From: an uncultured delta proteobacterium
GTDB lineage: Bacteria; Desulfobacterota; Desulfobulbia; Desulfobulbales; Desulfocapsaceae
Length of the DNA stretch: 64,000 nucleotides
Reading direction: 5' to 3'
Assembly: GCA_903901335.1 (NCBI GenBank)
Contig: CAIUQR010000083.1
Coordinates: 16,866 to 80,865 of the forward strand
Every line of letters starts with the position of its first letter. Within the stretch, counting starts at the first letter, position 1. This document shows positions 8,325 to 45,329 of the stretch, one piece after another. The position numbers and the translations under genes were made by a program. The notes under the pieces were generated by a model that did not search any database, was not told where the DNA came from, and saw nothing but the letters and a program-made list of their open reading frames with translations.

Positions 8325-8367
8325 TGTGTATCTCCTTCATTCTGCGGTTGTCTGTCTTTCATCCCCA

Positions 8368-24699: not shown

Positions 24700-24723
24700 A
24701 AATACACTTTATTTCGTGAGGGC

Positions 24724-26181: not shown

Positions 26182-27537
26182 CTAATCGAGACCGAACAGT
26201 TTCATCTTGCGCCAGAGCGTTGTTCGCGGAACGTCAAGAATCTTGGCTGCAAGCCCCTTGTTATAGCCGGTATTCTCAAGAACTTTTTCAATATATCTCC
26301 GCTCCATTTCTTCCAGGGAATGCAATCCGGCGCCTTCGAGCGTATCGAATTCAAGTTTCTGCAGGTCCTTCGGCAGATCGTGGGCTGTAATCTCTTCGCT
26401 CTCCGTCAGGGCAACAGCTCTCTCTACGATATTTTCCAGTTCCCGGACATTACCCGGATAACTGTAATTGACGAGAATCTGCAGAGCCTGCGGTTGCATT
26501 CCGGTAACCTGCTTGTGAAATGCCAGGCTGTACTTTTCGATAAAATGGCGAATGAGAAGGGGAATGTCCTCCCGCCGCTCCGATAATTGCGGCAGGGCAA
26601 TGGTTACCACATTGAGCCGGAAGTAGAGATCCTCACGGAAGGCGCCCTGTTCCACCTCATGTTTGAGATCTTTGTTGGTCGCTGCAATGATCCTGATATC
26701 CAGATCAATGGGTTTCGTGCCTCCTACGTGAAATATCTGCCTTTCCTGAATGACGTGCAGAAGCTTCACCTGCATATTCAATGGCATTTCACCAATTTCA
26801 TCGAGAAATACGGTGCCTCCGGCCGCCGATTCAAGCAGACCGACCTTGGTTGCCGTCGCTCCGGTAAAGGCGCCGCGTTCATACCCGAAGAGTTCACTGT
26901 TGATCAATTCATCGGCAAAGCTGCCGCAATTAAATGCGACGAAAGGACGATCCATTCTCGGGCTGAGCCGGTGGATGGCCCGGGCCACGAGGGCCTTTCC
27001 CGTACCGCTTGCGCCTTGCACGAGGACGTTGCAGTCCACGGGAGCAACCTTGCGGATCATCGCAAACAAGTCCTGGATAACGGAACTGTTGCCGATGATC
27101 GAGGTCAGTCCCGAATCACCTTTGAGCGCCTCTCGCAGCTGCAGGTTTTCAAGGCGCATGGAGATCTTGTCCTGGGCGCCTTTGGCCAGGAGGCGGATCT
27201 CGGCGAGATTGACCGGCTTGGCGATATAATGGTAGGCGCCCTTGCGGATGGCCTCTACGGCAGTTTCCACGCTCTTGTGCCCGGTGATAATGATCACCTC
27301 GGTTTCTGATCTGAGTGCCTTGATCCGCGACAATATGTCGAGGCCATCCAGATCGGGCAGACGCATATCCAAAAAGACGATATCAAACGGTTGCTGGACC
27401 ATTCGTTCCAAAAAGGAACGTCCCATGATAAAGGCCTCGACCTCAAAACCCTCGCGCAGTAGAGCCTGACTGAGCCTCCGGCAGACAATCTCCTCATCAT
27501 CCACAATAGCCAGTTTAAACGTCATGATGCGGTCCAT
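26182..27537 (-). CDS. Sigma54-dependent NtrC-family response regulator, RR2
   Basis: LAIVDDEEIVCRRL; GASGTGKALVARAIH; ERGAFTGAT; NKGLAAKILDVPRTTLWRKM. Confidence 0.96.
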   Translation of the reverse strand: MDRIMTFKLAIVDDEEIVCRRLSQALLREGFEVEAFIMGRSFLERMVQQPFDIVFLDMRLPDLDGLDILSRIKALRSETEVIIITGHKSVETAVEAIRKGAYHYIAKPVNLAEIRLLAKGAQDKISMRLENLQLREALKGDSGLTSIIGNSSVIQDLFAMIRKVAPVDCNVLVQGASGTGKALVARAIHRLSPRMDRPFVAFNCGSFADELINSELFGYERGAFTGATATKVGLLESAAGGTVFLDEIGEMPLNMQVKLLHVIQERQIFHVGGTKPIDLDIRIIAATNKDLKHEVEQGAFREDLYFRLNVVTIALPQLSERREDIPLLIRHFIEKYSLAFHKQVTGMQPQALQILVNYSYPGNVRELENIVERAVALTESEEITAHDLPKDLQKLEFDTLEGAGLHSLEEMERRYIEKVLENTGYNKGLAAKILDVPRTTLWRKMKLFGLD

Positions 27538-29045
27538 CCCATAAAGTCTTTGCCGTTCGATTCTGAAACATGGGGGAGTAAGACGGTAAATCGTGTCCCT
27601 CGACCTGCTTCGCTGAAGAGTTCAATACGGCCTCCATGCCGTTTAATGATCGCATAGCAGACCGCAAGCCCAAGGCCGGTTCCCTTTCCCACCTCCTTAG
27701 TCGTAAAAAACGGTTCGAATATTTTATGCTGGATCTCCTGTGGAATCCCCGGACCGTTGTCCTCAACGGTGAAACTGAGAAATCCGGGCGTTGCGGCCCG
27801 ACCTACATGCATTCCGATCCGTCCGCCCTGTGGGGTCGCCTGTATGGCATTGAGTAACAGATTGGTAAAAACCTGCTGGAGGTTTCCGAGGTTGCCTTGA
27901 AGGATGGGGAGGTCTCTTGCAACGGAGGTTTCAAGGTGTAGGCCAACCATTTTGAACTGATTTTTGATCAGTCCAATGGTGCTTGTCAAGATCTGTGCAG
28001 GTGCGAGCGCACTGAATACCGGATTTTCTGTGCGACTGAAATCCAGGAGATTTTTTACGATATCTGCGGCACGTTCTGCCTGGCTGAGAATATCATTGAT
28101 CATTTCCGTACAATCTTCATCCATTTCATCAGCATACCCCTCCCTGAGACAATCCGCAGTAAGAGCGATATTATTGATGGGATTATTTAATTCGTGCGCG
28201 ATTCCTGCAGTAAACGTACCGATAGCGGCAATTTTTCTCGCCTGAATCAAATTTTCCTGATTTACCTCCAACTCATGCGCCATACGGTTGAAGGCCTCAA
28301 TCAATCCGGAAATCTCTTCCAGGCGAACTCCATCATAATGAATGGGACTAAAATCCCCGCGTCCAACCAGACGCGTTGTCTCCATCACCACATCCAGGGG
28401 TTTCAACAAGGCATGGGAAATAATCCAGAGAACCAGGGCCATCAGCAACAGGAGGATGGCAAAAAATGCAAAGGGAAGAATCGAGGTCTGGGCGATGGTT
28501 GCATGGATACGTTTTCGTTTGATCTCACGAAAATGATCCGCGGCATCAATCAAGGTTTTGCCTAAATTACGAAGCATTTCAGGTTGTACCTGGTCTCCCT
28601 GGCTGATATTGCCGACCAGTTTGCGGTAATTTAGCAAGGTCTTCTGGAAATTGGAAAACGACTCCTCCCCGACAAGCCGTGGTAGATCCACTGCAAGCTC
28701 TGTAACGAGCGTATCGATGCGATCCAGGTATTCCTTGCTCTCCATCAGACTCTTATTGTCACCGTAAATCAGAAAATTTTTCTCAAACCTGCGTACCTCG
28801 AGGATATTATTCAGGACATCATCATACCCCTCACTCAGCAGCATTCGGGTTTTGAGCATGGAAAGATTCCAGAGATTAAAACCGGTGAGGGCGGTGATGG
28901 AAAGAAATGTCACGGTGAACATGATGAAAATCTTTCCCCTGATCGACCCTGGTCGCAGATATTGCAGGCAAATATGAGACAACCTCTGCCAATAAGACCT
29001 CGGCACACCACTCATCTGATAACCCTCCACAAAATAATCCGGCAC
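27522..29045 (-). CDS. Membrane sensor histidine kinase (HAMP), HK2
   Basis: [18 protein letters not shown] sensor motif as in HK1; [26 protein letters not shown]. Confidence 0.93.
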
Positions 29046-29181: not shown

Positions 29182-29197
29182 TGGCATCAACATTGCT
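29182..29197 (+). promoter_or_regulatory. Sigma54 -24/-12 promoter TGGCATCAACATTGCT
   Basis: TGGCA and TTGCT with exact GG-N10-GC spacing, 26 nt upstream of the uspA ATG. Confidence 0.8.
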
Positions 29198-29222: not shown

Positions 29223-29645
29223 ATGAAAAAAATACTTGTAGCAATTGATGGCAAACATGCAGCATGGGAGGCCCTCTCGCATGCCTGCTCTCTGGCCACA
29301 CGAATTGATGTCCAACTTAATGTCCTTCTGGTGAATCCACCGGGTGGTAGACGTCTGTCCAGCGCCGAAATGGAAGTGAAGGACCAAATCAGGAAAAAGA
29401 TTGAACTGCTCATCGAAGCCGCCAAGGCAGAAGGGATCAAGCTCAATTATTATGTTACGGAGGGTATTTATGATGACGAGGTGATCAGTTTTATCAACAA
29501 TAACAAAATAACACTTCTGGTATATGAAACACTTGAAGGGGATACACGACCGGCAAACAAGGAGTTGGCGTCATCTCTGCGCACGCTCCGGCACAGAATA
29601 TCCTGTACAATTGAGGTCGTGGCCCCTAAGAAAACACAGATCTGA
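29223..29645 (+). CDS. Universal stress protein family (single domain)
   Basis: MKKILVAIDGKHAAWEALSHACSLATRIDVQLNVLLV; TEGIYDDEVISFI. Confidence 0.82.
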   Translation: MKKILVAIDGKHAAWEALSHACSLATRIDVQLNVLLVNPPGGRRLSSAEMEVKDQIRKKIELLIEAAKAEGIKLNYYVTEGIYDDEVISFINNNKITLLVYETLEGDTRPANKELASSLRTLRHRISCTIEVVAPKKTQI

Positions 29646-29740: not shown

Positions 29741-30679
29741 ATGAGCCTTACAATGAATCTTTATCTCCCTATAGCCGGCAACAGTGTGAATTGTCTGGCA
29801 ATATTTGGGCTTGGAGGGATTGTCGGTCTTTTGTCCGGCATCTTTGGAGTGGGCGGAGGGTTTCTGATGACACCGCTGCTTATCATGATGGGCATTCCGC
29901 CGACGGTGGCCGCATCGTCGGATTCCAACCAGATAGTCGGCGCCTCCACCTCGGGGACCCTGGCGCACTTCCGTCTGGGCAATGTCGATATCAAAATGGG
30001 CTTTCTCCTGCTCATAGGCGGTATAGCGGGCGGCACGGTGGGCGTACAGATCATCAAGATCCTGCGTCAACTGGGCAATGCCGATTTTCTCATCAGTATT
30101 ACCTATGTTCTTATGCTGGGCTTCGTCGGCGGATACATGTTCCTGGAGAGTCTCCAGGCCATGCGCAAGTCTTCCCAGGGGAGGCACACCGCTCCTTCCT
30201 CTAAAAAGGAATCGGTTTACGCAAGAATGGTCCGCACGATGCCGTTCCAGACGGATTTCAAACGTTCCGGTATCCGGATTTCAGCATTGATGCCGCTGGT
30301 TCTCGGCACTCTGGTGGGAATTCTCGCAGCCATCATGGGCGTCGGCGGCGGCTTCATCATGGTCCCGGTCATGGTCTATATGCTGCGCATGCCGATGCAT
30401 GTGGTCGTGGGTACCAGTCTCTTCCAGATCCTTTTTACCTGCATCAACGTCACCGTCATGCAGGCCACCCAGAACCACACCGTCGATTTTGTCCTCGCCC
30501 TTCTGCTCCTGCTGGGCTCCGCCCTCGGCACCCAGGTTGGAGCCAAGCTCGGCAAAAAACTGGGCGGAGAACAGTTGAAAATCCTTCTTGCCTCACTGGT
30601 TCTGATCGTGATGTTCAAGATGCTCTTCGATCTCCTGGTCCAACCGGATATTTTGCTAGCCTATATGGGAGGACATTAA
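29741..30679 (+). CDS. TSUP (TauE/SafE) family membrane transporter
   Basis: GLLSGIFGVGGGFLMTPLLIMMGIPPTVAASSD...GTLVGILAAIMGVGGGFIMVPVMVY tandem repeat. Confidence 0.92.
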   Translation: MSLTMNLYLPIAGNSVNCLAIFGLGGIVGLLSGIFGVGGGFLMTPLLIMMGIPPTVAASSDSNQIVGASTSGTLAHFRLGNVDIKMGFLLLIGGIAGGTVGVQIIKILRQLGNADFLISITYVLMLGFVGGYMFLESLQAMRKSSQGRHTAPSSKKESVYARMVRTMPFQTDFKRSGIRISALMPLVLGTLVGILAAIMGVGGGFIMVPVMVYMLRMPMHVVVGTSLFQILFTCINVTVMQATQNHTVDFVLALLLLLGSALGTQVGAKLGKKLGGEQLKILLASLVLIVMFKMLFDLLVQPDILLAYMGGH

Positions 30680-30680
30680 A

Positions 30681-31451
30681 ATGAAAACCAGTAATCACAT
30701 ACAGTTCGCATGGCTCTCCGTCCTTCTTCTGATGGTTTTTCCCTGCCTTTCCCTTGCTGATGAGACAGGGGGCATATCCACAACACCCACCAGTATCGAG
30801 ATGGGCGCACAGTACGACGGCATCAACTTGAAGGTAAAGGGCACTGTGCCGGCCGGCAGCGATGTCATCCTGCATCTCACCGGAGCCGTCCGTGACCTGC
30901 ATCTTCGACAAAAGGGCAAGGTCGGTGGTCTCCTCTGGATGAATGTCGGCACGGTGACACTGACGAATGTCCCCAATGTCTCTCTCATTGATACCTCCCG
31001 GCCATTCAGCGAGCTTGGCGGTGTTGCCTCCCCCTTCAGACTCGAAAGCCTGCGCAATGTTATCAAGATTGAGCAGGACACCAAGGCTGAACAAATCGAT
31101 ATCCCGCATGAACTCTTTCTCCTGAAAAAACACGAAAGGCTGTATAATGAAGCAGAGAAAGGTGTGCATCTCGGTCCGGTCGAAGGATCCATATCATCGT
31201 TTTCAGCTGAACTTGCAATCCCGTCCGCCCTTGCTCCGGGGGAATACCAGGTTGAAGCCATTGCCATTAAAGATGGTGCCGTGGTGGGCAAATATGCCAC
31301 GACCGTAAGAGCTGAACTGATCGGCTTTCCCAAATGGTTAAGCAAACTTGCCTTTGAAAAAAGCCTTCTCTATGGCATATTGGCAACGGTCATCGCTGTT
31401 TTCGCCGGCCTGGCCATCGGTCTTGTATTCCAGAGCAAGGGAGCTCATTAG
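30681..31451 (+). CDS. TIGR02186-like membrane-anchored protein
   Basis: Signal peptide, periplasmic domain (VPAGSDVILHLTGAVRDLHLRQKGKVGGLLWMNVGTVTLTNVP), C-terminal TM; adjacent to TauE. Confidence 0.75.
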   Translation: MKTSNHIQFAWLSVLLLMVFPCLSLADETGGISTTPTSIEMGAQYDGINLKVKGTVPAGSDVILHLTGAVRDLHLRQKGKVGGLLWMNVGTVTLTNVPNVSLIDTSRPFSELGGVASPFRLESLRNVIKIEQDTKAEQIDIPHELFLLKKHERLYNEAEKGVHLGPVEGSISSFSAELAIPSALAPGEYQVEAIAIKDGAVVGKYATTVRAELIGFPKWLSKLAFEKSLLYGILATVIAVFAGLAIGLVFQSKGAH

Positions 31452-31550: not shown

Positions 31551-34118
31551 ATGTTACGCGTTTTGAAAAACCTGCTCGCCTTCCGGCGTCACCCGAAAAA
31601 GGTACTCCCGTTTTCTGTTCTCTTTAAGAAATTTCAGAGCATCCTAGAGAGAAACAACCAGATCCTGGAACTTATAGCCGATATGGGTGACAAGTTGGGA
31701 GGCGAGTACGTTTTTGACCGCCGCTATGTGGAGGTTGTGACGGAAAAGCTTGGAGACCTGGTCTTCAAGCTGATTTCCGATCTCAGTATCTTGAACCAGC
31801 GCAGGAACACCGAACTTTTTATTGCCTGCGAGCACATTCGTCAGGCAATCCAGGAGGAACTCTCCGGAAAACCAGTTCTCACAACGGGCAAATCCGTCCT
31901 GCCGTTAAGTGTTCTTGGCCATGAACTGACTGAACAGGCCGGCACCAAAATGGCGAACATCGGCGATATCCGCAATCGTCTGGGCCTGTCCACACCGGAC
32001 GGTTTTGTCATAACATCCCATGCCTTCTCTGAATTCATGCAACACAACGGTCTACTTGCCAAGGCGGAATCAGCCATGAAATACTGGCACGACAAGGACG
32101 ATGCTGCCTTAAAAGGCCTTGCCGACGAGATGCAGAAAAGTATTTTTGCGGCCTCGCTCCCGCGTAAGCTGGTCGCAGAGATACTGGCGGAGTTTGACCT
32201 GCTGGCTGAGCGATTGAAGCTGCGCAATATCACTGTAGCCATGCGCAGCAGCGCCTCTGGTGAGGATGGGGCCAGCAGTTTTGCCGGACAATACGAAACC
32301 GCGCTCAATGTCTCGCGCGACCAGCTTATTGATGGCTATCGCCGGGTAATAGCCAGTGCCTATACCTTCAAGGCCTGGCACTATCGCCTCTACAGAGGCT
32401 TTCATGAACATGAAACGACCATGGCGGTCGGTTGTCAAGTTATGGCCGAGGGTCTTGTCAGTGGAGTTCTGCACACCTACGCACCCCATCTCGCCGATCA
32501 GGTCATGGTCGCAAACGCGGTATGGGGGCTCTGTTCCCCTGTGGTACGAGGAGAGCGAGCGACGGATACCATCGTCTTTGATCGCACTCCTCCCTACACC
32601 CTGCGCTCACTTTTAGTCGCCGACAAGGCACAACGTCTCGTGCTTGCCCCTGGAGGAGGCACGGTCTGGGAAGATACACCGGAAGAACTGCATGAAGCCC
32701 CGAGCCTGAGCGAGGAGCAAATGAAAAACCTTGCCGAGGCAGCGATGACGCTCGAGCGCTATTACAAACGACCTCTGGAAATTGAATGGACTTACGATTT
32801 GGCGGGCAACCTGCAGATTTTGCAGTCGCGGCCGTTGCGTTACTGGGGTGCCTCACCCGCATCAGAGGAGCAGATAGGCAACGCTACCCGTAACGCAGAA
32901 ATCGTTTTTTCGGGAAAAGGGTTCGTCGCCCAATGCGGTGTCGCTATTGGAGAAATATTCCTGGTTGAAAATGACGCCGATCTCGAGGCCTTCCCCCATG
33001 GCGCCATCATGCTGGCCCGGCATACTTCTCCCCGCTATGCCAGCATTATGCACAAGGCCAGAGGGATCATCACCGATGTGGGCTCCGCTACCGGCCATAT
33101 GTCAACGCTGGCCCGTGAATTCCGGGTACCGACCATCGTCAACACCGAAGTGGCTACCAGCCTGTTACGTACCGGGGACGAAATCACCCTGGATGCAACC
33201 CAAAATTCCGTGTATCGAGGCCATATCACCGCTCTGGACCGTTTCGAGCTGATCGAAGAGGAGGTCTTTGAAGATTGGTACGAATACCGAATGCTTCGCC
33301 GGGTGCTCAAACATATCAGTCCGCTGAATCTCCTCAACCCGCAGGGTGATGATTTTGTCCCCGCAGCCTGTCATACCTTCCATGACATCACCCGGTTTAT
33401 TCATGAGATGGCGGTTGAAGAACTTATTCACCTGAGCGAAAAACGGGAGGCACAGTATCTTTCCGCCCCTAAACGCCTGGAGGCAGATATCCCCTTAGGT
33501 CTCATGGTCATAGATGCGGGTGGCGGCACGACGTGTCCGCCGGAGGCCCGCTCCATCACTCTGGAGCAGGTCGTTTCTCTGCCGCTGCATGAGTTACTGG
33601 GGGGCCTTATCGGTTTAGGGATGTGGTGTACCGACCCTGTTCCTGTCGATCTGGGCAGCTTTATGTCAAGTGTCACCCGCACCTTTTCCTCCTCAATGGC
33701 CAGCCCGAAAGAAATCGGCAGAAACCTGGTCGTGGTCCTTCCGGATTATATGAACATCAACATGCGCCTCGGCTATCATTTTACGATTATTGATGCCTAT
33801 ATCTCCCAAGAGATGAACGATAATTATATCTATTTTCGGTTTCTGGGAGGAGTAACAGAATTCATCCGCCGTTCCCGAAGAGCAAGTTTCATTGCCAAGG
33901 TACTTGAACACTTCGACTTTCGAGTGGAAATACATGGAGATCTTGTGGTAGGGAGATTAAAGAAACTTTCTTTGCTCCGCATGTCGGAACGGATGCGTAT
34001 GCTGGGAGGACTGGTCGGCTATACGAGGCAGCTCGACGCGCGAATGCACTCGGACGACGATATATCCAGCCATGCCGAGCTCTTTATCAACGCTATGAAA
34101 AGCGTAATCGGAGGATAA
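31551..34118 (+). CDS. PEP-synthase/PPDK-like protein, paralog 1: ATP-grasp, phosphohistidine swivel and uncharacterised C-terminal domain
   Basis: MRSSASGEDGASSFAGQYETALNV; IEWTYDLAGNLQILQSRPL; DVGSATGHMSTLAREFRVPTIV; C-terminal block YMNINMRLGYHFTIIDA...NYIYFRFLGG. Confidence 0.88.
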   Translation: MLRVLKNLLAFRRHPKKVLPFSVLFKKFQSILERNNQILELIADMGDKLGGEYVFDRRYVEVVTEKLGDLVFKLISDLSILNQRRNTELFIACEHIRQAIQEELSGKPVLTTGKSVLPLSVLGHELTEQAGTKMANIGDIRNRLGLSTPDGFVITSHAFSEFMQHNGLLAKAESAMKYWHDKDDAALKGLADEMQKSIFAASLPRKLVAEILAEFDLLAERLKLRNITVAMRSSASGEDGASSFAGQYETALNVSRDQLIDGYRRVIASAYTFKAWHYRLYRGFHEHETTMAVGCQVMAEGLVSGVLHTYAPHLADQVMVANAVWGLCSPVVRGERATDTIVFDRTPPYTLRSLLVADKAQRLVLAPGGGTVWEDTPEELHEAPSLSEEQMKNLAEAAMTLERYYKRPLEIEWTYDLAGNLQILQSRPLRYWGASPASEEQIGNATRNAEIVFSGKGFVAQCGVAIGEIFLVENDADLEAFPHGAIMLARHTSPRYASIMHKARGIITDVGSATGHMSTLAREFRVPTIVNTEVATSLLRTGDEITLDATQNSVYRGHITALDRFELIEEEVFEDWYEYRMLRRVLKHISPLNLLNPQGDDFVPAACHTFHDITRFIHEMAVEELIHLSEKREAQYLSAPKRLEADIPLGLMVIDAGGGTTCPPEARSITLEQVVSLPLHELLGGLIGLGMWCTDPVPVDLGSFMSSVTRTFSSSMASPKEIGRNLVVVLPDYMNINMRLGYHFTIIDAYISQEMNDNYIYFRFLGGVTEFIRRSRRASFIAKVLEHFDFRVEIHGDLVVGRLKKLSLLRMSERMRMLGGLVGYTRQLDARMHSDDDISSHAELFINAMKSVIGG

Positions 34119-34119
34119 G

Positions 34120-34548
34120 ATGATAGCAGAAAAAAATCCCGCGGGACCCCGGCTCCGCATCCTCATTCTTGATGACGAACCGATTGTCTGCAAACGGCTG
34201 AAACCCACATTTCAGAAGATGGGATATGAGGTCGAGACCTTTACGGACAGCGCTTCCGCACTGGCCAGGTTACGCGAGACTACCTTCAATATTGTCATCA
34301 CCGATCTCATGATGGAAGGCGCCGACGGCATGCAGGTTCTCCTGGGGGCCAAAGAATCATCACCGGACACCCAGGTTATCGTTATCACAGGATTTGCAAC
34401 CCTGGATACAGCCAAGGAATCCTACAGGAAAGGCGCCTTTGATTTTGTTGCCAAACCTTTTAAGCTTGGTGATATACTGGATTGTGTCAAGCGAATTGAA
34501 GAAAAACAGCGGGGAACCAGGCTCCCCGGTCCTGATGCACAACCGTGA
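34120..34548 (+). CDS. Stand-alone receiver-domain response regulator
   Basis: ILILDDEPIVCKRL...VITDLMMEGADGMQVL...VITGFATLDTAKESYRKGAFDFVAKPF. Confidence 0.93.
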   Translation: MIAEKNPAGPRLRILILDDEPIVCKRLKPTFQKMGYEVETFTDSASALARLRETTFNIVITDLMMEGADGMQVLLGAKESSPDTQVIVITGFATLDTAKESYRKGAFDFVAKPFKLGDILDCVKRIEEKQRGTRLPGPDAQP

Positions 34549-37247
34549 ATTCTACCGATAGCCTGCAGAGCGCGAGAATGTGGTGGCAACGACTCATCGG
34601 AAAAAACCGGCCGGCCCGCAGAGATGCCGCCGAAATCGATATCTGGCGCCTGCAATCTCTTTTCAATAATTTCAGAAGGATACTCTTTCTCAACAATGCC
34701 ATATTGGAAGATATGGCCCATATGGAACGTGCCCTTGGGGGAGAATATATTTTCGACAGGACCTTCCTTGAGACATCGGTCCGCACCATTGCCTCACGTG
34801 TCCACCATGTTACCTACAACATTAATGCCCTGACAGGGAACGCCTACATCCCTCTCTATGATAAGTATCAGGATATCCGGACAATCCTTGACGATATCCT
34901 CTCAGGCAATGTCCGTGCCCTTGCCTGCGCCCCGGTTCTGCCTCTCCATGCCGTCGGCTGGGAGATGGAACCGCTGGTCGGCATCGATCTGGTCTGCCTG
35001 GCGGAACTGCGGCATCATCCGGGAATCCGGATGGCGGAGGGTTTTATTATCACCGCTGAAGGCACCCGGGCCCTGAGCGGACGGGAGTTGCCGGATGCGG
35101 ATCGCACCCGCATCCCGATTGCAGAGGTGAGGGCGGCGATCGACGAGCAGTTCAATATCTTGCTGAGCAAACAATCGGTACGAGGTTTTTCCGTGGTGGT
35201 CACCCGGATCGAGGGCGAGGAAGAACTGGTCCGGGAACTCGGGAGGTTTTCTCTGGTGCCTGTTGCGGATGGTTCCGGAGTGGCTGTTCTTCAGGAAGGT
35301 TCGATTCTTGCTTCATCTGCAACCTTCACACCGGTGGCTCCGCCGGAAATCATCACACCCCCGCCTTCCCCAGACAGCCTCCCTGTCGACCATTACGTCC
35401 AGGGTCTGGAGCAGATAGTCCGCACGGTTTTTTCATGGTTAGCTCCAGCCGGGAAGGAACCGGTAGACCACATTGCTGTCTTTGTCCGTCGTTCACCACC
35501 GGCGATCATTTCCGGAACCGTACAGACCCGGACAAGGATCTCCTGTTCATTTGAGACCCTGGCCATTACCGCCAACCTGCAGGATACAAATGATGCCGGT
35601 GACACCTTCCTGCTCCGCCGGACATATCCTTTCGATCTGATCCAGTCAACCATCAGTCCGCGCCCTGCCGGCTACCGTTTCCCCGACGACAGCCTCGCTA
35701 CAAGCCAAGGGGCTGCGTACAGTTCGTTCGGGCGAGGATCGGCCCTGGTGGAAATCAAGATGATGAAAAGATTGGCGGAAACGGCAATGACACTTGAACG
35801 GATGCTGGGTTCGGCGGTTGCCGTGCGATGGGAGTGCCTGGGTGATGGCAGCTTCCGTATCACCGGCCTTACCCCGATGCCGGTCATGCTCGAAGAGATC
35901 CCCGGCCATGAACTGGTCCTCGAACGCGAGGCAGCAGAAATCCTCTGCCAAGGCGGCCAGATGGTACAATCGGGTGTTGCCGCGGGCAGTGTCGTCCATG
36001 TAACCGACGAGATGACTCCCTCGGACTTTCCCGCCGGGGCCGTGGCTGTCGCCCGGGCAGCCTCACCGCAATTAACCCCTGTGCTGCAGCGGGCGGCCGC
36101 CGTCATCACTGAAAACGGTACGACAACCGGTCACCTGGCCACAGTCGCCCGGGAATTGCGGCTGCCCGCCCTCTTCGGTGTCCCTGGCGCACTCGCCCTG
36201 CTTCCTCCGGGAACTGAGGTGACGGTGGATGCCGGCGAGACCACTGTCTACCGGGGGATTCTCGACCTGCTGCTGCGACACGGAGCAAGAGAAATGGACC
36301 TCTCTCCTTCCGACCCGGAATACAGGACCCTGCGCCGGCTGGTGCGTTTCATCATGCCGCTGAATCTGGTCAACCCCGAATCGCCCGACTTTTCAGCCCA
36401 GGGATGCCGGACCTTCCATGATATCATCCACTTCTGTCATGAAAAGGCGGTTGACGAACTGGCTCATTTTCAGGAGCATCGACCGGGACTGGGCGCGATC
36501 CGCACCCGGCGGATGAACCTTGGCGTACCGATGGATATACGGGTCCTCGATATCGGGGGGGGGATGACGACACCGGCCACCGACGAACCAACCGCCGACG
36601 AGGCCCGCTCCGAGCCTTTTTCGATCTTTCTGGAAGGGCTGCTCAACCCTCAGGCCTGGGCAACTGAGCTCCCCTCCCTCGGGCTCAGGGATATCCTCTC
36701 CAGCATGCCCCGCAGCATGGGCATGCTTTCCGAATCGGTCGACAGCCTCGGAGAAAACCTGGCCATTGTCAGTCATGATTATATGAATGTCAGCCTCCGT
36801 CTCGGGTATCATTTCAGTGTCATCGATGCCCATCTGGGGAGTGATGGTTCCCGCAACTACGTCTATTTCCGGTTTGCCGGAGGCCTGGCCGACCCTGAAC
36901 GGCGCGGTCGCAGAGCGACCTTCATCAGCACTGTCCTCAAAGCCATGGACTTCAAGGTATCGATGAAAGGCGATCTGGTTATCGGCAGGCTGAAATCGGC
37001 AGAGTCAGCTACATTGCGTTCGGCCCTGTCCATTTTAGGGGCATTGACCGCATTTTCACGCCAGCGTGATACCGGCCTGTACAGTGATGCCGATACGAAT
37101 GCCCTTTTTATACTTTTTGCCAGCACCTTTTTAAGCGCCTTCAACCGGACAATCCCGTCAGTGCATGATCAGCCGGAACCGGAGTCCGTCAAAACGGCAG
37201 ATCCAGGAAATTCAGGAAAAAACGATGATACTGAGCCGCTTAATTGA
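34545..37247 (+). CDS. PEP-synthase-like paralog 2 with degenerate ATP-grasp and retained swivel His
   Basis: Lacks RSSAxxED motif; keeps ENGTTTGHLATVARELRLPALFGV; shares N- and C-terminal blocks with paralogs 1 and 3; GTG start overlapping the RR stop. Confidence 0.82.
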   Translation: MNSTDSLQSARMWWQRLIGKNRPARRDAAEIDIWRLQSLFNNFRRILFLNNAILEDMAHMERALGGEYIFDRTFLETSVRTIASRVHHVTYNINALTGNAYIPLYDKYQDIRTILDDILSGNVRALACAPVLPLHAVGWEMEPLVGIDLVCLAELRHHPGIRMAEGFIITAEGTRALSGRELPDADRTRIPIAEVRAAIDEQFNILLSKQSVRGFSVVVTRIEGEEELVRELGRFSLVPVADGSGVAVLQEGSILASSATFTPVAPPEIITPPPSPDSLPVDHYVQGLEQIVRTVFSWLAPAGKEPVDHIAVFVRRSPPAIISGTVQTRTRISCSFETLAITANLQDTNDAGDTFLLRRTYPFDLIQSTISPRPAGYRFPDDSLATSQGAAYSSFGRGSALVEIKMMKRLAETAMTLERMLGSAVAVRWECLGDGSFRITGLTPMPVMLEEIPGHELVLEREAAEILCQGGQMVQSGVAAGSVVHVTDEMTPSDFPAGAVAVARAASPQLTPVLQRAAAVITENGTTTGHLATVARELRLPALFGVPGALALLPPGTEVTVDAGETTVYRGILDLLLRHGAREMDLSPSDPEYRTLRRLVRFIMPLNLVNPESPDFSAQGCRTFHDIIHFCHEKAVDELAHFQEHRPGLGAIRTRRMNLGVPMDIRVLDIGGGMTTPATDEPTADEARSEPFSIFLEGLLNPQAWATELPSLGLRDILSSMPRSMGMLSESVDSLGENLAIVSHDYMNVSLRLGYHFSVIDAHLGSDGSRNYVYFRFAGGLADPERRGRRATFISTVLKAMDFKVSMKGDLVIGRLKSAESATLRSALSILGALTAFSRQRDTGLYSDADTNALFILFASTFLSAFNRTIPSVHDQPEPESVKTADPGNSGKNDDTEPLN

Positions 37248-39978
37248 TATTTTCCGCAACCGGAAACAGGCGAGAGAGAAAGAGGCCCTGACGGAATTGA
37301 AGGCACGCTATCATGCCTTTCGGATATTTCTCGAAAATAACGGCAGGGCACTTGAGCTTCTTGTGACTATCGATGGTCTGCTCAATCGCGGCGAAGAAAT
37401 CGAAATCCGGGCCTCGACCGAAGAGCTGCTGGCCGTTACCGGAGAGCTGGTCGACGGCCTGAACCTGCTCTCCGGAGATGGCCATGCCGGGCTTTACCCG
37501 CTCCATGGTCATATGGCCGCAGACGTGTTGAAACATCTGGATATTCTCTCCGATCATCCGACACTTCAGGCCTACTGTCCGGCACTGGACGAGCTTGCCC
37601 CCGAAGCCCAACTCCTGGCCGGGACGAAGGCAGCCAATCTGGCCCGACTTAGGCGTTTAGGGCTGCCGGTTCCCAACGGATTCGTCTGCACGACCAGAGC
37701 CTGTAAGAGGTTTATCGCAGGTGGAAAATTGGCAGCCGATATCCGCAGGATTTTACAGGAAGTTGAGTATTCGCAAAAAGATGTCCAGCAGGCAGCGACG
37801 CAGATCAAAGAGATGATTCTGCATGCACCGCTGCCCGAGGAAATTTCCACGGCGCTGACGGAGGCGTACAGACAGCTCGAAATGACGGAGGGCCGGGACG
37901 GCAATCATGCCGGACCGTTCGCTATCTCGGTACGCAGCAGTGGTGTATCGGAAGATGGAGTTGAGCACTCGTTTGCCGGCCAATACACTTCTCTCCTCAA
38001 CATCACCGGCATTCAAGCACTCTTTGACGCCTACCGGGAGGTTGTGGCCAGCGGATTGAGTGCCCGGGCGCTTTCTTACCGGCAGAACGCCGGGCTGTCA
38101 CTGGCCGATTTTGATTTTGCGGTATTGTGTCAGGTTATGGCTGACTCCTATTGTGCCGGTGTGCTGTTTACCCGCGATCCCTCCCAGCCGGAGAGCGAGC
38201 GCATGCTGATCAGCGCCGTCCCCGGTCTCGGAACCACTGCCGTAGACGGTTCCGCGGCAGCTGATCTCTACCGCCCCCAGCGAACTCACCAACGAAAAGT
38301 CACCCCCACCGGACACCGGGGAGGCAAGCCGAAAATCTCCAGGGCCCGCGCGGACCAACTTATGGAAGGCGCTGAAATCTCTCACAAAGCATTCCGGGAA
38401 GTGCCGGCAGCGGCAGGCGGTCTGGAGTTGGAACCCTTTCCGGCACAGGATGCTGAGGCACCCCTGTTGTCGGCTGAAATACTGGAAGAACTGGTGGACT
38501 TCGGGGAGATGCTTGAGAGTCTGGAAGGGATAGGGCAGGATGTTGAGTGGGCCTACTCAAAAGAGACGGGTTTAGCCATCCTGCAGATGCGCCCGTTGCT
38601 CCTTTCTTCCAGCAAGGGCCGAAGATTGCGCATGCCGGCGACCACTGTGCCGATCGTCTCCGGAACCTGCGCCGTGCATGGAAAGGCGGTAGGCAGAGTC
38701 CGCATTGTTCATTCGGCAGCAGAATTGATGCAGATCGACAAAACGCTCTCCGACGATACCACACTTGCACCCTGCATCCTTGTCCTGCCGCAGAGTATCG
38801 TTGATTCCGCGCGTCTTTTACAGACCTGCGCCGGACTTATCATCGAGGTCGGAAATCCGACGGATCACCTGTCCTGCATCGCCCGCGAATATGGTGTGCC
38901 GATGATCACCGGCGCTCAAACGGCTGTGTCGCGACTGCGTGAAGGGCAATGGGTCATTGTCGATGCCGACCAGGGCATGGTCCTGGAGGCCCCTGACTCC
39001 ATCCGGGACGCCGTTTCCCAGGCCCACACGGAACAGCAGACGGCACGGAGGAAGAAGGATTATCCCGGCCCGGCGCAGACGAGACACACCATCGTGCCGC
39101 CGGAGAGGCAGACATTGCGAAGAATGATCGTCCCTCTTAACCTGACCGATGCCTACGGCCCGACATTTTCCCGGATGGAGTGCAGGTCTATCCACGATAT
39201 CATCCGCTATACCCATGAAAAGGCGGTGCTCGCCATGTTCGATGCCGGGGATATGATCATGGAGGAGGCGGGTGGTCTGTTGCGGCCTCTGGATATCGGC
39301 GTTCCCTTCTCTTTTCTGGTGATAGATGTCGGAGGTGGGGTACGCAGGGAGGAAAAGACCTCTTTGCGGCAACGACTGGCGCTGCAGCACCCTTTGTCCA
39401 GAGCAGACATCCTTTCGGTGCCGCTGGCCGCACTCTGTGACGGACTGACCACACCGGGGCTTAGCTGGCATTCCGGACCGGACATCGACGCCCTGCCGGG
39501 AATTATGTCCCGGAGCATGCTGGACACACGGGGTGCCCGCCCGGCAGGATCATTCAACTACGCCCTGGCCGCCCGTGACTATCTCAACCTCAACGCCAGG
39601 GTCGAGTTCCACTTTGCGATGCTCGACGCCGTATGCGGAAAAGATACACATGCCAACTATATCCGCTTCCGGTTTAAAGGGGGTGGGGCAGGACTCGAAC
39701 GCGGCCATCGGCGGGCGGTCTTTCTCCGCCGGGTTCTTGAAGCCAACGCATTTTACACAACGGTAGCGGGTGATTTGATTACCGCCTCGCTGACAGGGGC
39801 CACAAAAGAGGTTGTTCATGCGCGGCTGGTCATGATCGGACGACTGCTCGGCTTCAGCAGATTTCTGGATGGGGTCATGACGAACGACGAAACTCCCGAG
39901 AAATTGGCTGAGGCATTTCTTGCCGGACGATTTGACACACGGGTCGTACAGAAAGAACTGGAAAAGGGTCGATTATAG
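37225..39978 (+). CDS. PEP-synthase/PPDK-like paralog 3
   Basis: ISVRSSGVSEDGVEHSFAGQYTSLLNI; DVEWAYSKETGLAILQMRPL; VGNPTDHLSCIAREYGVPMITG; shared C-terminal block. Confidence 0.87.
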   Translation: MILSRLIDIFRNRKQAREKEALTELKARYHAFRIFLENNGRALELLVTIDGLLNRGEEIEIRASTEELLAVTGELVDGLNLLSGDGHAGLYPLHGHMAADVLKHLDILSDHPTLQAYCPALDELAPEAQLLAGTKAANLARLRRLGLPVPNGFVCTTRACKRFIAGGKLAADIRRILQEVEYSQKDVQQAATQIKEMILHAPLPEEISTALTEAYRQLEMTEGRDGNHAGPFAISVRSSGVSEDGVEHSFAGQYTSLLNITGIQALFDAYREVVASGLSARALSYRQNAGLSLADFDFAVLCQVMADSYCAGVLFTRDPSQPESERMLISAVPGLGTTAVDGSAAADLYRPQRTHQRKVTPTGHRGGKPKISRARADQLMEGAEISHKAFREVPAAAGGLELEPFPAQDAEAPLLSAEILEELVDFGEMLESLEGIGQDVEWAYSKETGLAILQMRPLLLSSSKGRRLRMPATTVPIVSGTCAVHGKAVGRVRIVHSAAELMQIDKTLSDDTTLAPCILVLPQSIVDSARLLQTCAGLIIEVGNPTDHLSCIAREYGVPMITGAQTAVSRLREGQWVIVDADQGMVLEAPDSIRDAVSQAHTEQQTARRKKDYPGPAQTRHTIVPPERQTLRRMIVPLNLTDAYGPTFSRMECRSIHDIIRYTHEKAVLAMFDAGDMIMEEAGGLLRPLDIGVPFSFLVIDVGGGVRREEKTSLRQRLALQHPLSRADILSVPLAALCDGLTTPGLSWHSGPDIDALPGIMSRSMLDTRGARPAGSFNYALAARDYLNLNARVEFHFAMLDAVCGKDTHANYIRFRFKGGGAGLERGHRRAVFLRRVLEANAFYTTVAGDLITASLTGATKEVVHARLVMIGRLLGFSRFLDGVMTNDETPEKLAEAFLAGRFDTRVVQKELEKGRL

Positions 39979-39990
39979 GGGCGAATTGCC

Positions 39991-40683
39991 TCAGGCGTGA
40001 TAGAAACGCAGATCCGGCAACTCCACCGCGGTCAGGAAATTACCATACACCGCTCCTGTGTCGATGCCGATGCGGTCGGTCATGACCAGCGGAGTTTCAA
40101 AAGGCACGTGGCCGAATACGATGATTTGTCCCGTCAAGCAGAAGTCTTCCCTGGCTAATCGCCTGCTGGCCAGAAGACTTGCCTCGGCATACCGCTGAGA
40201 CTGCGGGGCATCCGTCCTTGTTTTCGCCAGGGCCAGTTTCTCTTCATCGATATCCGCATGGGTAAAAAGATAGTTACCGGCGACAAAGGAAAACTTGAGC
40301 GTCTGCAAGAAATCCTGATGTTCCGGAGGCATACAGGAAAGGTCCCGGATCATGCGCACCGAAGAGCCATAGCTTGCCGCCGTCGCCTCGACCCCCATCG
40401 TGCGCAACATATGCAGGGTTTCCACATCCCCCGTTGCCGCATAGTCCAAGAGCGCCTGTTCATGGTTTCCTTTGAGAAAAACCACCTGGTTACAGGTTGC
40501 TCTGATGTGCAGAAGGGTGTCGAGAACCTTTCTGGAATCCGGCCCCCTATTGATATAATCTCCAAGAAAAACAATAATATCCTCGTCGTTATCGACAGGC
40601 AGGCGTCCCAGAAGGCTACTAAGCTTGTTATTACAGCCATGGATATCACCTATTGCAAATATCTTTCGTACCGGCGGAAACAT
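39991..40683 (-). CDS. PPP-family metallophosphoesterase (serine/threonine phosphatase-like)
   Basis: FAIGDIHGCNNKL; FLGDYINRGPDS; FLKGNHEQALL; FGHVPFETPL. Confidence 0.93.
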   Translation of the reverse strand: MFPPVRKIFAIGDIHGCNNKLSSLLGRLPVDNDEDIIVFLGDYINRGPDSRKVLDTLLHIRATCNQVVFLKGNHEQALLDYAATGDVETLHMLRTMGVEATAASYGSSVRMIRDLSCMPPEHQDFLQTLKFSFVAGNYLFTHADIDEEKLALAKTRTDAPQSQRYAEASLLASRRLAREDFCLTGQIIVFGHVPFETPLVMTDRIGIDTGAVYGNFLTAVELPDLRFYHA

Positions 40684-40686
40684 TAC

Positions 40687-42717
40687 CTACCTCTTGGCCT
40701 CAAGGACCCTGTCGACGACCTCATCTGCACTAGCTACAAGCGCCAGTTCGAGCCCTTCTTTCACGTCGATGTCAAGGGCTTCAACCTCTTCTTTGTTGGC
40801 CCGCGGCAATATAACACACCGCACACCCGCCCGTTTGGCGGCAAGAATTTTTTCTCTGATACCACTGATGGGGAGAACCCGCCCGCTGAGCGTCATTTCG
40901 CCCGTGAGCGCCACATCCCGGCGGGCTGGACGCCGGGTGAGGAGGGACAGAAGCGCTGCAAATATGGTTATGCCTGCTGATGGTCCGTCTTTCGGAATGG
41001 CCCCGGAGGGAAAGTGGATATGGATGTCGATGTCTTTGAAAAAATTGTCGATTATGCCGAATTCGAGAGTCCTGCTCCGGATAAAACTAAGCACGGTCTG
41101 TGCCGATTCCTGCAACACATCACCTAGCGAACCCGTCAACAGAAGCCTCCCCGAGCCGGGCATTGAGACGGTTTCGACATTGATGATCTCGCCTCCCGTC
41201 TCGGCCCAGACAAGGCCTGTCGCAATACCGATTCGCGCCTCCGCTTCCGCCGCTTCCCGGAAAAATTTCCGTGGGCCGAGAAGACGGGAAACGGTGTCGG
41301 CGTCCATTTCCACGGTCTGGTCATACTTCTCTGTTTTCAAACTGAGCAGCGCAATTTTTCGACAGATATCGGCAAGTTCCCTTTCAAGATTCCGCAGCCC
41401 CGATTCTCTCGTATAGTCTGAAATCACCCGCGAAATCGCTTCCGGAGAAAAATGAACAGTCTCTCTGGGCAACCCTGCGGCCTTGAGTTGCCGGGGCAGA
41501 ATGAACTGTTGCGCGATCTTCAGCTTCTCCTTTTCAGTATATCCTGCAAATTCGATGCGCTCCATACGATCGAGAAGAGGGCCGGGGATTTTTGAAATAT
41601 CATTAGCCGTAGCAATAAACATGATCCGGGAAAGGTCAAAAGGAACATCCAGATAGTGGTCCGAAAATCGGACATTCTGTTCAGGATCAAGGACCTCAAG
41701 AAATACAGAGGCCAGATCGCCGCGAAAATCCTGACCGATTTTATCTATCTCGTCCAGCATAAAAACCGGATTATTGACTCCCACCCGCCTCAACTCCGTG
41801 ATAATACGACCGGGCAGGGCGCCGACGTAAGTTCGCCTGTGGCCGCGCAATTCTGCCTCATCCCTGAGACCCGCAAGAGACACTCGCACGAACTGACGCT
41901 GCAGGGCCTCGGCAATGGCCCGGCCGACCGAGGTCTTGCCGGTGCCGGGAGGCCCGGTGAAGCAGAGTATCGGGCCTTTGCCCATTTCGACGAAGATCTT
42001 CTTTTCCAGAACCTCTTTTACTGTCTTGCGCAACTCGTCGAGGTTAACGGGCTTTCCGAGGTAATGAGCCGCCCCTTTCTTCAGGGCCTCCACCGCTGAG
42101 CTGACAGTGGCAAAGCCCGTCACCATGATCACTGGGATATCCGGAGACGCCCGGTTGATCTGCTGCAGCAGTTCAATACCGTCCATACGCTCCATCTTCA
42201 GATCGGTGATAACCAGATCTATGTCCGTCCTGGCCAGAACCTTCAGGGCCTCAAGGCCGTTATCGGCACTGTGACAGATGTACCCGTCCTTTTTCAGCAC
42301 ATGTTCCATATTGGAACGGGCTATCTCTTCATCATCGACGATCAGGATATTCTGCTGCGCCTTGCTGCACAGGGTCTTGGCGGCCAGAAATTCAAGAATC
42401 CGTTGTTTGACCTGGGAGAGGCCATAGTGCCTGGTATCGAGAAGAGACTGGGCCCGAGCCAGTTCAAGTTTGCCCTGCGAGGATGTGTTCCACGGCAAAG
42501 AGAGCACCAGTTCTATATAATTGAAACCGACGGAATACTCGGCAACAGCAGAATCGGTTTTCTCGAGTTTTTCAAGCTCCTTGGAAACCGCCTCGGTGAC
42601 ATAAGGAGGAAGACCTGCCTCATCTATCCGGGAGCGAAGCTTAGCCAGGGGAGAGACTGGCTCCGATGTCCCCTGGGGCGATTCCACAACATGTTCAACT
42701 TTTCTTTTAAAAAACAT
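40687..42717 (-). CDS. Lon-type ATP-dependent protease with receiver domain inserted before the AAA+ module
   Basis: GPPGTGKTSVGRAIA; GHRRTYVGALPGRI; PKDGPSAGITIFAALLS (Ser); GRVLPISGIREKILAAKRAG (Lys); internal NILIVDDEEIAR...TDLKMERMDG receiver (about 41998-42357). Confidence 0.93.
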   Translation of the reverse strand: MFFKRKVEHVVESPQGTSEPVSPLAKLRSRIDEAGLPPYVTEAVSKELEKLEKTDSAVAEYSVGFNYIELVLSLPWNTSSQGKLELARAQSLLDTRHYGLSQVKQRILEFLAAKTLCSKAQQNILIVDDEEIARSNMEHVLKKDGYICHSADNGLEALKVLARTDIDLVITDLKMERMDGIELLQQINRASPDIPVIMVTGFATVSSAVEALKKGAAHYLGKPVNLDELRKTVKEVLEKKIFVEMGKGPILCFTGPPGTGKTSVGRAIAEALQRQFVRVSLAGLRDEAELRGHRRTYVGALPGRIITELRRVGVNNPVFMLDEIDKIGQDFRGDLASVFLEVLDPEQNVRFSDHYLDVPFDLSRIMFIATANDISKIPGPLLDRMERIEFAGYTEKEKLKIAQQFILPRQLKAAGLPRETVHFSPEAISRVISDYTRESGLRNLERELADICRKIALLSLKTEKYDQTVEMDADTVSRLLGPRKFFREAAEAEARIGIATGLVWAETGGEIINVETVSMPGSGRLLLTGSLGDVLQESAQTVLSFIRSRTLEFGIIDNFFKDIDIHIHFPSGAIPKDGPSAGITIFAALLSLLTRRPARRDVALTGEMTLSGRVLPISGIREKILAAKRAGVRCVILPRANKEEVEALDIDVKEGLELALVASADEVVDRVLEAKR

Positions 42718-43256: not shown

Positions 43257-43272
43257 TGGCATAGTTTTTGAG
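43257..43272 (+). promoter_or_regulatory. Sigma54-like promoter TGGCATAGTTTTTGAG
   Basis: TGGCA at -24; -12 element TTGA instead of TTGC, correct spacing. Confidence 0.45.
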
Positions 43273-43315
43273 AATAGAGAGCAAACACATAATCATTTTC
43301 GCATACGGGACGATC

Positions 43316-44173
43316 ATGGGACAAGAAAATACATCCATCTTTACAGAGCAATCGGCAACTGAGATATCCGAAGGCGACTTCCCGGCACCGGCACGGAATA
43401 AAACACCGTATATCCTGGTCGTCACCAGGAACGGCCATATGGCCGAACCGGTGATGGACTATGCCCTTAATGTCGCAGAACGTCTGAAATATTCTATACT
43501 TGCCGCCTATATAAACACCCTGCCGTTTTACCGTGACGGCGGAAGACGGAGCAAACTTTTCGCCGCAGCCATGCTGGAAAGTTCAAAGCTGTTCAGGGAA
43601 AAGGGCGAGGCCAGGTCCATCCCGATCGAACACACAGACGCATCAGGGAAAATAGGCAGGGCCGTTAAACATCTCTGTCATTTGGAAAAACATATTGAGT
43701 TTGTCGTCATAGATCAAGGAATCAGCATGAAAGAGGTGTCCTCTCAATCTCCTGTTCCCGTATTCAGCGTCATTTACACCCAAGCAAAGGCAGGTCGTGT
43801 TTCCAAGACCACTCACAATAGAACTTTAAATGAAGGAGTATCGCGTATGTCCACAACCACAAGCAAAAAACGACATGTAAAGAATTGTTTCATCTTTGGG
43901 GCTCTTACTGCCGGGCTGTATGCAGCAGTCTTTACCAACCAGGAACTCGTTATGAAATATTTTACCAAAGGCGGTTTCTTTGCCCTTTTGCCTGTTGCCG
44001 TTGTCTTTGCCCTTTCCTATGTCCATGGCAATTTCACGAGTTCGTTCTGGTCGGCTCTCGGCATTGAAGGTTCTAAAACCACCGCGACAAAGAAGGCGGA
44101 TATCCGCAAGGATGCCCCTGCTTCCGTCGATATCAGAAAAGACACCAGACCTCGCGCCCAGGTAAATGCCTGA
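43316..44173 (+). CDS. UspA-like domain fused in frame to a small C-terminal membrane domain
   Basis: YILVVTRNGHMAEPVMDYALNVAERL; NCFIFGALTAGLYAAVF and GGFFALLPVAVVFALSYV TM segments; internal AAGGAG-N8-ATG at 43833-43849. Confidence 0.8.
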   Translation: MGQENTSIFTEQSATEISEGDFPAPARNKTPYILVVTRNGHMAEPVMDYALNVAERLKYSILAAYINTLPFYRDGGRRSKLFAAAMLESSKLFREKGEARSIPIEHTDASGKIGRAVKHLCHLEKHIEFVVIDQGISMKEVSSQSPVPVFSVIYTQAKAGRVSKTTHNRTLNEGVSRMSTTTSKKRHVKNCFIFGALTAGLYAAVFTNQELVMKYFTKGGFFALLPVAVVFALSYVHGNFTSSFWSALGIEGSKTTATKKADIRKDAPASVDIRKDTRPRAQVNA

Positions 44174-44262
44174 TATTTCAATAACGCCAGGCCTTAAAGA
44201 TGCACACAAGATAAGAGAATCAATACCTTGATGAGAGAAAATTTAACTATTCGGAGAGAACC

Positions 44263-45327
44263 ATGCACGGACCAGTCACGGAAGTACTTCAATTTATAGA
44301 TCTCACTACATACACCGTCGTCTTTTTATTCATCGTCGGTTTTATCGGCGGGCTGGTGAGCGGTTTCATCGGCTCCGGCGGGGCCTTTGTTCTGACTCCC
44401 GGCATGATGAGCCTGGGTGTACCGGGGACCGTCGCGGTCGCCAGTAATATGTGCCACAAGTTCCCTAAGGCCCTGGTCGGTGCCATCAAGCGCTATAAAT
44501 ACGGCCAGGTCGACATCAAGCTTGGCCTCATCATGGGCGTTTTTGCCGAGATCGGTGTCCAGGTTGGTATCATGATACAACGGCATATCCTGGAAAAATT
44601 CGGCCCGGCAGGTTCCAACCTCTATGTCAGTTTCATCTTTGTCCTGGTACTGGTTATTGTCGGTGGCTATGTCATGCGTGACGCCATCAAGATGAAGAGT
44701 GCCGTTGGAGATGCCGTCGTGACCCCTCCTATTGCCAAACGCCTGCAAAAGATCGAACTCTGGCCGATGCTTACCTTCAAGACCGCCAACCTCCGGATAA
44801 GCATGTGGTTTCTTATTCCTGTCGCCCTGGCTACCGGCATGCTGGCCGCGACCATTGCTGTGGGAGGCTTTATCGGGGTTCCTGGACTTATGTATATCAT
44901 CGGTGCCACCAGCATTGTTGCCTCGGCATCTGAACTGGTTATCGCCTTCGTCATGGGACTGGGCGGCACACTGATCTGGGCCTATTACGGCACGGTCGAT
45001 ATCCGTCTGGTCATGATCATTCTTGCCGGTTCTTTGTTCGGCGTCCAACTTGGCGCCATCGGCACCACCTATGTAAAAGACTATATGATCAAATACGTTA
45101 TGGCCACCATCATGCTGATCGTTGCGGTGAGCAGATTTCTGGCTATCCCGAAGTATCTGAACCAATTGAACGTCACCTCCCTTTCCGAGGGCATTGTAAA
45201 AATCATGACCCAGACCAGCTTCTACGTCATGTGTTTCGCCCTCCTGGTCGGTGCCGGTATCATTCTGTTTAATCTGTTTAAAGCCCGAAGTCTTGAAAAG
45301 GCAATACCTGTACCTGTGAGAGGATAG
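44263..45327 (+). CDS. TSUP (TauE/SafE) family membrane transporter (second)
   Basis: GFIGGLVSGFIGSGGAFVLTPGMMSLGVPGTVAVASNMCHKFPKALVGA. Confidence 0.92.
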   Translation: MHGPVTEVLQFIDLTTYTVVFLFIVGFIGGLVSGFIGSGGAFVLTPGMMSLGVPGTVAVASNMCHKFPKALVGAIKRYKYGQVDIKLGLIMGVFAEIGVQVGIMIQRHILEKFGPAGSNLYVSFIFVLVLVIVGGYVMRDAIKMKSAVGDAVVTPPIAKRLQKIELWPMLTFKTANLRISMWFLIPVALATGMLAATIAVGGFIGVPGLMYIIGATSIVASASELVIAFVMGLGGTLIWAYYGTVDIRLVMIILAGSLFGVQLGAIGTTYVKDYMIKYVMATIMLIVAVSRFLAIPKYLNQLNVTSLSEGIVKIMTQTSFYVMCFALLVGAGIILFNLFKARSLEKAIPVPVRG

Positions 45328-45329
45328 TC

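Follow-up and report, generated by a model that had tools for sequence, protein, structure and literature searches.

What do three tandem PEP-synthase-like genes do when each ends in a domain that is not the PEP/pyruvate barrel, and when all three lie among genes for transport and signaling? We addressed this question in the window, i.e. the whole stretch of 64,000 nucleotides analyzed here, which derives from an uncultured member of the Desulfocapsaceae (contig CAIUQR010000083.1). A preliminary description of this DNA had proposed that three paralogs, here called P1, P2 and P3, each combine an ATP-grasp region, a swivel region with a phosphocarrier His and an uncharacterized C-terminal block of about 280 amino acids, and that they may transfer phosphate through the His to an unspecified acceptor. 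Our results show that P1-P3 do not form a new superfamily, but the dikinase plan with this C-terminal domain, amid transport and signaling genes, is new.

Results

Gene content of the window

The tandem arrangement was borne out: P1, P2 and P3 are full-length open reading frames of 855, 900 and 937 amino acids in one operon-like run (Table 1), with a common His motif and C-terminal block. Identity to P1 is ∼31% for both P2 and P3. The start codon of P2 is GTG. For P3, a start at 37225 (Met21, MILSRLIDIF) is the more probable one on sequence comparison, since relatives in two other loci (L008 and L009) begin there. The stand-alone receiver (REC) gene at 34120-34548 was absent from the preliminary description. 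The candidate sigma54 site ends 26 bp ahead of the first gene of the operon; across the whole window the number of sigma54-like matches is not above chance.

Further genes surround the run. Upstream, two complete histidine kinase/sigma54-activator pairs lie side by side, at 23281-26085 (+) and 26182-29045 (−). At 40687-42717 (−) the window encodes a Lon-type protease with a REC ahead of its AAA module (Response_reg 4e-32, Lon_C 8e-76), and a Lon-type reading frame also adjoins the triple in L008. A second transporter/stress set is found near the triple at 43268-46214 (+), consisting of a 301 amino acid protein without a Pfam match, a TauE protein (44263-45327) and a tandem-Usp protein (45330-46214).

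Table 1. Features of the dikinase-like operon and its flanks, in coordinates of the window.
Feature	Position	Strand	Basis
Response regulator/sigma54 enhancer-binding protein (REC + Sigma54_activat + HTH_8), divergent from operon	26182..27537	−	Pfam
Sensor histidine kinase (HAMP, HisKA, HATPase_c), divergent from operon	27522..29045	−	Pfam
Candidate sigma54 −24/−12 promoter TGGCATCAACATTGCT, 1 mismatch	29182..29197	+	Motif scan
Usp (universal stress protein)	29223..29645	+	Pfam PF00582 6e-10
TauE/SafE-family anion transporter	29741..30679	+	Pfam PF01925 3e-48; neighbor conserved
TIGR02186/Alph_Pro_TM membrane protein	30681..31451	+	Pfam PF09608 1.5e-41; neighbor conserved
P1, dikinase-like, intact ATP-grasp, His swivel and new C-terminal domain	31551..34118	+	ORF, Pfam, family alignment
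P1 ATP-grasp (PPDK_N), aa 128-437, catalytic residues kept	31932..32861	+	Pfam, alignment
P1 phosphocarrier His516 in GSATGHMSTLARE	33096..33098	+	Invariant in 158/158 members
P1 C-terminal domain, aa 575-855	33273..34115	+	Alignment, AlphaFold model
Stand-alone CheY-like receiver (REC), between P1 and P2	34120..34548	+	Pfam PF00072 6e-26
P2, pseudo-dikinase, degenerate ATP-grasp, intact His swivel and C-terminal domain	34545..37247	+	Pfam, alignment
P2 C-terminal domain, aa 591-868	36315..37148	+	Alignment
P3, dikinase-like, intact ATP-grasp, His motif GNPTDHLSCIARE, C-terminal domain	37165..39978	+	ORF, Pfam, alignment
P3 C-terminal domain, aa 647-924	39103..39936	+	Alignment
Metallophosphoesterase (PPP/ApaH-PrpE-like), convergent	39991..40683	−	Homolog adjoins 22/24 triples

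P1 and P3 carry the ATP-grasp and His parts of a dikinase

Pfam assigned PPDK_N to P1 (6e-73) and P3 (4e-68), and the swivel domain PF00391 to P1 (1e-19), P2 (1e-16) and P3 (6e-14). His516 and R522 (P1 numbering) were retained in all 158 full-length members of the family. The swivel His region claimed earlier for the three proteins was confirmed. The claim of an ATP-grasp in all three stood for P1 and P3 and failed for P2, in which PPDK_N was not matched even at E≤1. Nine ATP-site residues (K133, R232, S233, S234, E238, D239, E412, Q425 and R427, P1 numbering) were all present in each of the 134 members that are not P2s, and none of the nine is kept in the P2 of the window.

P1 and P3 share with PEP synthase (pyruvate, water dikinase, PpsA) the order of an ATP-grasp followed by a His swivel, as well as the catalytic residues. 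A full-length structural model matched PEP synthase, RPH, HpeI and PPDK in Foldseek, the best hit of all being PEP synthase (PDB 2ols, E 4e-25). Unlike PEP synthase, P1-P3 possess an additional helical N-terminus of ∼110 amino acids, for which Pfam gave no match and the PDB only chance coiled-coil matches; they carry the new C-terminal domain and no PEP/pyruvate TIM barrel; and their family is linked to REC and TauE genes. No HisKA (DHp) or HATPase_c domain was matched by Pfam in P1-P3. The RPH model of NCBIfam, whose cut-off is 999 bits, reached 166, split over two separate stretches.

No curated family or solved structure matches the C-terminal domain

P1 and P2 share 40% identity over 280 amino acids in their C-terminal blocks (E 2e-73), and nine residues (H611, D612, H618, H743, G766, G767, R777, G819 and D829, P1 numbering) are invariant across the 158 full-length members. 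PEP-utilizers_C (PF02896), the TIM barrel, was absent from P1-P3 at E≤1 in Pfam, and the true PEP synthase of the same genome (G000:C34), used as a positive control, has all three domains, with PF02896 at 4e-60. Alignment of the C-terminal profile with the barrel of that PEP synthase by hhalign gave no similarity. AlphaFold2 predicted the domain confidently (mean pLDDT 86.8, pTM 0.77) as a mixed alpha/beta fold, and a Foldseek search with this model did not match PpsA or PPDK. We consequently reject a PEP/pyruvate TIM barrel identity, in agreement with the preliminary description.

The same description had called the block uncharacterized, and profile searches and structure prediction gave it neither a curated family nor a solved structure. 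The C-terminal ∼280 amino acids had no match in Pfam, NCBIfam or the PDB; no member of a set of 59 C-terminal sequences showed a convincing Pfam family match; and the profile of these 59 sequences retrieved nothing from the PDB sequences at E≤10. Foldseek matches of the model were not significant (best E 0.02 in the PDB and 5e-3 in a viral library). YbjN and type III chaperone-like folds (2plg, 4h5b, 3kxy, 1k3s) recurred among the weak matches. A YbjN-like fold was not supported by hhalign (probability ∼0.1%), a weak test since the YbjN set, drawn from the phylum, was small and partly of doubtful reading frames.

P2 is a conserved pseudo-dikinase

The ATP-grasp region of P2 has retained its length. 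P2-type genes were found in 24 loci from several GTDB families, a number that is not a frequency since most of these loci were chosen for showing several matches. Each of the 24 P2s keeps between zero and three of the nine ATP-site residues, and K133, S234 and Q425 are missing from all of them; since a missing RSS motif was the criterion by which P2s were recognized, only the six residues outside 232-234 test the loss independently. H516, R522 and the invariant residues of the C-terminal domain persist in all 24. When P2s are compared with one another, identity is 0.31 in the ATP-grasp, where P1s and P3s from these genomes reach 0.49; it is 0.55 in the His domain and 0.49 in the C-terminal domain, values comparable with those of the partners' domains. 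Phylogenetic analysis of the His and C-terminal parts grouped these 24 P2s, and no other sequence, in one clade (support 0.99); the P3s grouped together with a single additional member (support 0.98).

The position of P2 is equally constant. It is always the middle gene of a triple, with both P1 and P3 in order in 23 of the 24 loci, and each of these 23 complete triples has a REC separating P1 from P2 (20 as open reading frames, 3 by six-frame search). The loss of the ATP site, together with retention of the swivel His and the C-terminal invariants, argues that P2 is a conserved pseudo-dikinase, old and functional, which by its sequence is no ATP-dependent enzyme on its own and whose His is probably charged in trans by another protein.

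Conserved neighbors

Clusters containing the C-terminal domain are usually accompanied by TauE/SafE, stand-alone REC and histidine kinase/sigma54 genes. Among 40 clusters (L044-L076, loci selected solely by a match to the C-terminal domain), 33 had a TauE/SafE gene no further than 10 kb away, and the remaining 7 had none in that range; the genome of the window has ∼7 TauE genes in 4.8 Mb. A stand-alone REC on the same strand lay within 600 bp in 33/40 of these clusters, compared with a mean of 8.5 and a maximum of 16 in 300 trials with positions drawn at random from these loci. The phosphorylation residues (Asp/Thr/Lys) were intact in 70/70 adjacent RECs.

Two types of neighborhood were distinguished. 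The type seen in the window runs divergent HK/EBP - Usp - TauE - TIGR02186 - P1 - REC, and sigma54 −24/−12 sites with at most one mismatch were present upstream of 25 of 44 such operons, versus ∼1.3 expected. The second type, which belongs to another subfamily, comprises DVU0150_fam, TauE and DUF4881, often with a sensor-type sigma54 activator like DVU0151. The transport operon DVU0150-DVU0146 is under the sigma54 activator DVU0151 (PMC4641369), and its elements, a DVU0150-family gene, TauE and a sensor-type sigma54 activator, adjoin other members of the present family as well. DVU0150_fam (NF040783) occurs phylum-wide and cannot serve as a marker that singles out Desulfovibrio genomes. The C-terminal domain family was also present in 56 of the 57 genomes carrying DVU0150_fam, often at a distance of 3-12 kb, and this co-occurrence suggests a shared function for the two families.

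Phosphatase genes follow dikinase-like genes in different settings, a DSP/PTP-type enzyme immediately after the dikinase-like gene in the nitrate-cluster loci L108 (9721-10866) and L104 (6972-8081) and the metallophosphoesterase after P3 in triples. The two phosphatases are unrelated and occupy similar positions.

Distribution of the family

Within one phylum, to which all counts refer, the C-terminal profile was present in 107 of the 297 genomes searched, in 119/146 genomes of the order and in 80/119 of one other family, with up to 9-10 copies per genome. Open frames bearing the domain almost always encode the full-length protein. The genome of the window has five copies, three of them in the window and one each on contigs C138 and C155. 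A scan of genome contigs returned only two close relatives, and a plasmid collection searched with the C-terminal domain gave no match. The copy on C155 (L065), a member of 1060 amino acids, has a LamG/concanavalin-like extension of ∼210 amino acids after the C-terminal domain (8153-8791, minus strand), for which the Pfam matches were weak and below cut-off (best E 0.002).

Relation to the Desulfovibrio nitrate cluster

Our literature search returned no description of the family other than PMC4001038, in which loss of the TauE, REC or dikinase-like gene of a “nitrate cluster” conferred nitrate resistance (Korte 2014, PMC4001038). One of our loci, L108, reproduces the Dde gene order gene by gene in Pfam terms (DUF169-TauE-hypothetical-PtxB-HK-REC-dikinase-like-DSP), and the C-terminal domain scores 249 bits in its PPDK-like protein; in L104 a C-terminal-domain protein lies between PtxB-like and DSP genes. 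On the basis of this identical gene order, DVU0246/Dde_0604 probably belong to the family. The nitrate cluster (DVU0251-DVU0245/Dde_0597-Dde_0605, PMC4001038) resembles the window in combining TauE, REC, a dikinase-like protein, HK and a phosphatase. It differs in having a single dikinase-like gene and no P2 or P3, a DSP in place of the metallophosphatase, and a PtxB-like binding protein. Moreover, the C-terminal domains of the nitrate-cluster branch are only 28-31% identical to that of P1, and the window copy represents a different branch.

Korte et al. suggested a leaky thiosulfate transporter, and a native substrate other than nitrate is likely (PMC4001038). Some caution is warranted, as the pooled fitness values for DVU0250 and DVU0245 are at odds with those of the other cluster genes (PMC4001038), and the transposon insertions behind the phenotype may be polar.

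Discussion

We tentatively favor, with somewhat less than even confidence, a REC-gated His-phosphotransfer module of P1, P2 and P3 that controls the TauE/SafE anion transporter. P1-P3 would follow the dikinase plan of PEP synthase and PPDK and have a new acceptor or output domain where the pyruvate barrel would otherwise be. Given the conserved catalytic residues and the chemistry of the family, P1 and P3 would bind ATP and phosphorylate their own swivel His. The earlier proposal of His-phosphotransfer is retained for P1 and P3, with an acceptor other than pyruvate as the natural reading, and not for P2 by itself. P2, apparently unable to use ATP yet keeping its His and C-terminal domain, would be a dedicated His-plus-acceptor subunit, most likely phosphorylated in trans; we infer P1 and/or P3 as the charging proteins. 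The C-terminal domain would receive or sense the phosphate.

There is precedent for such a division of labor. In HpeHI, CreHI and phenylphosphate synthase a separate ATP-grasp polypeptide phosphorylates a His-plus-acceptor polypeptide in trans (PMC12167813), and the latter has the role that we propose for P2. P2 differs from it in retaining a degenerate ATP-grasp remnant and in accompanying two complete paralogs. The acceptor domain is also different, and no aromatic catabolism genes are conserved near the P1-P3 family.

Regulation of the module would be exerted by the REC, which, once phosphorylated by a histidine kinase, would gate it, probably by docking on it, and expression may be under sigma54 control. 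The module would act in one pathway with the adjoining TauE/SafE transporter, switching or supporting anion transport, so that its output would be the activity of the transporter or of its partner; for the triple of the window itself, this link is a putative one. In its most far-reaching form the hypothesis holds that P1-P2-P3 form a heteromeric dikinase, an ATP-driven His-phosphotransfer machine of a new class, in which P2 is charged in trans, the receiver gates the assembly, and a C-terminal domain of new fold passes the phosphate on and thereby controls a TauE-type transporter. We consider this extended version, which would couple a phosphorelay to transport somewhat in the manner of the sugar PTS, possible but rather unlikely.

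An unlikely but serious alternative is that P1 and P3 are metabolic dikinases, whose C-terminal domain binds a small molecule (e.g. an oxyanion or organic acid handled by TauE) which they phosphorylate, with the REC and HK merely regulating them. RPH, which phosphorylates rifampin, and HpeHI, which phosphorylates phenols, combine the ATP-grasp/His engine with other acceptor domains (PMC12167813; PMC4844700), and the invariant His, Asp and Arg residues of the C-terminal domain resemble a binding or catalytic site. RPH (PDB 5hv1) and the small-molecule dikinases, like P1-P3, reuse the dikinase engine with a non-pyruvate acceptor domain. The order of parts in RPH is ATP-grasp, rifampin-binding acceptor domain and C-terminal His, whereas in P1-P3 it is ATP-grasp, His and C-terminal domain, the last without a detectable relative. 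However, the neighbors of the family are a transporter, receiver, kinase, Usp and phosphatase, with no conserved catabolic or biosynthetic enzymes nearby, and a pseudo-dikinase retained with its full C-terminal domain better fits a regulatory assembly.

It is less probable still that P1 and P3 serve as alternative histidine kinases, passing the phosphate from their His straight to the aspartate of the neighboring REC. The intact phosphorylation residues of the RECs, which adjoin a dikinase-like gene in most clusters, would be expected if this were the case. Yet the classical histidine kinases of the same clusters suffice as donors, and the large C-terminal domain would have no role. Furthermore, no swivel His of the dikinase superfamily is known to phosphorylate a REC.

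That P2 is a decaying duplicate in a triple without joint function would account for its strongly degenerate ATP-grasp, but is very improbable given a single clade spanning 24 loci, fixed gene order, and the His, Arg and C-terminal invariants kept throughout. Ordinary PEP synthase paralogs with a merely diverged barrel are hardly credible: PEP synthase models are the best NCBIfam matches of P1 and P3, but they cover the ATP-grasp and His parts only and score far below cut-off, and the C-terminal domain lacks PF02896, profile similarity to the barrel, a (beta-alpha)8 fold and a PpsA/PPDK structural match.

In conclusion, the presented data describe a common, multi-copy family of the phylum that has neither a domain entry nor an assigned chemistry. 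In P2, its conserved pseudo-dikinase, the family offers a natural test case for in-trans phosphorylation among dikinases. With the C-terminal domain linked to TauE transporters, receivers and, probably, the nitrate cluster, the reason why Desulfovibrio becomes nitrate resistant upon loss of a PEP-synthase-like gene, a genetic result now ten years old, becomes directly testable, and the tie of the family to this cluster bears on the control of souring by nitrate.
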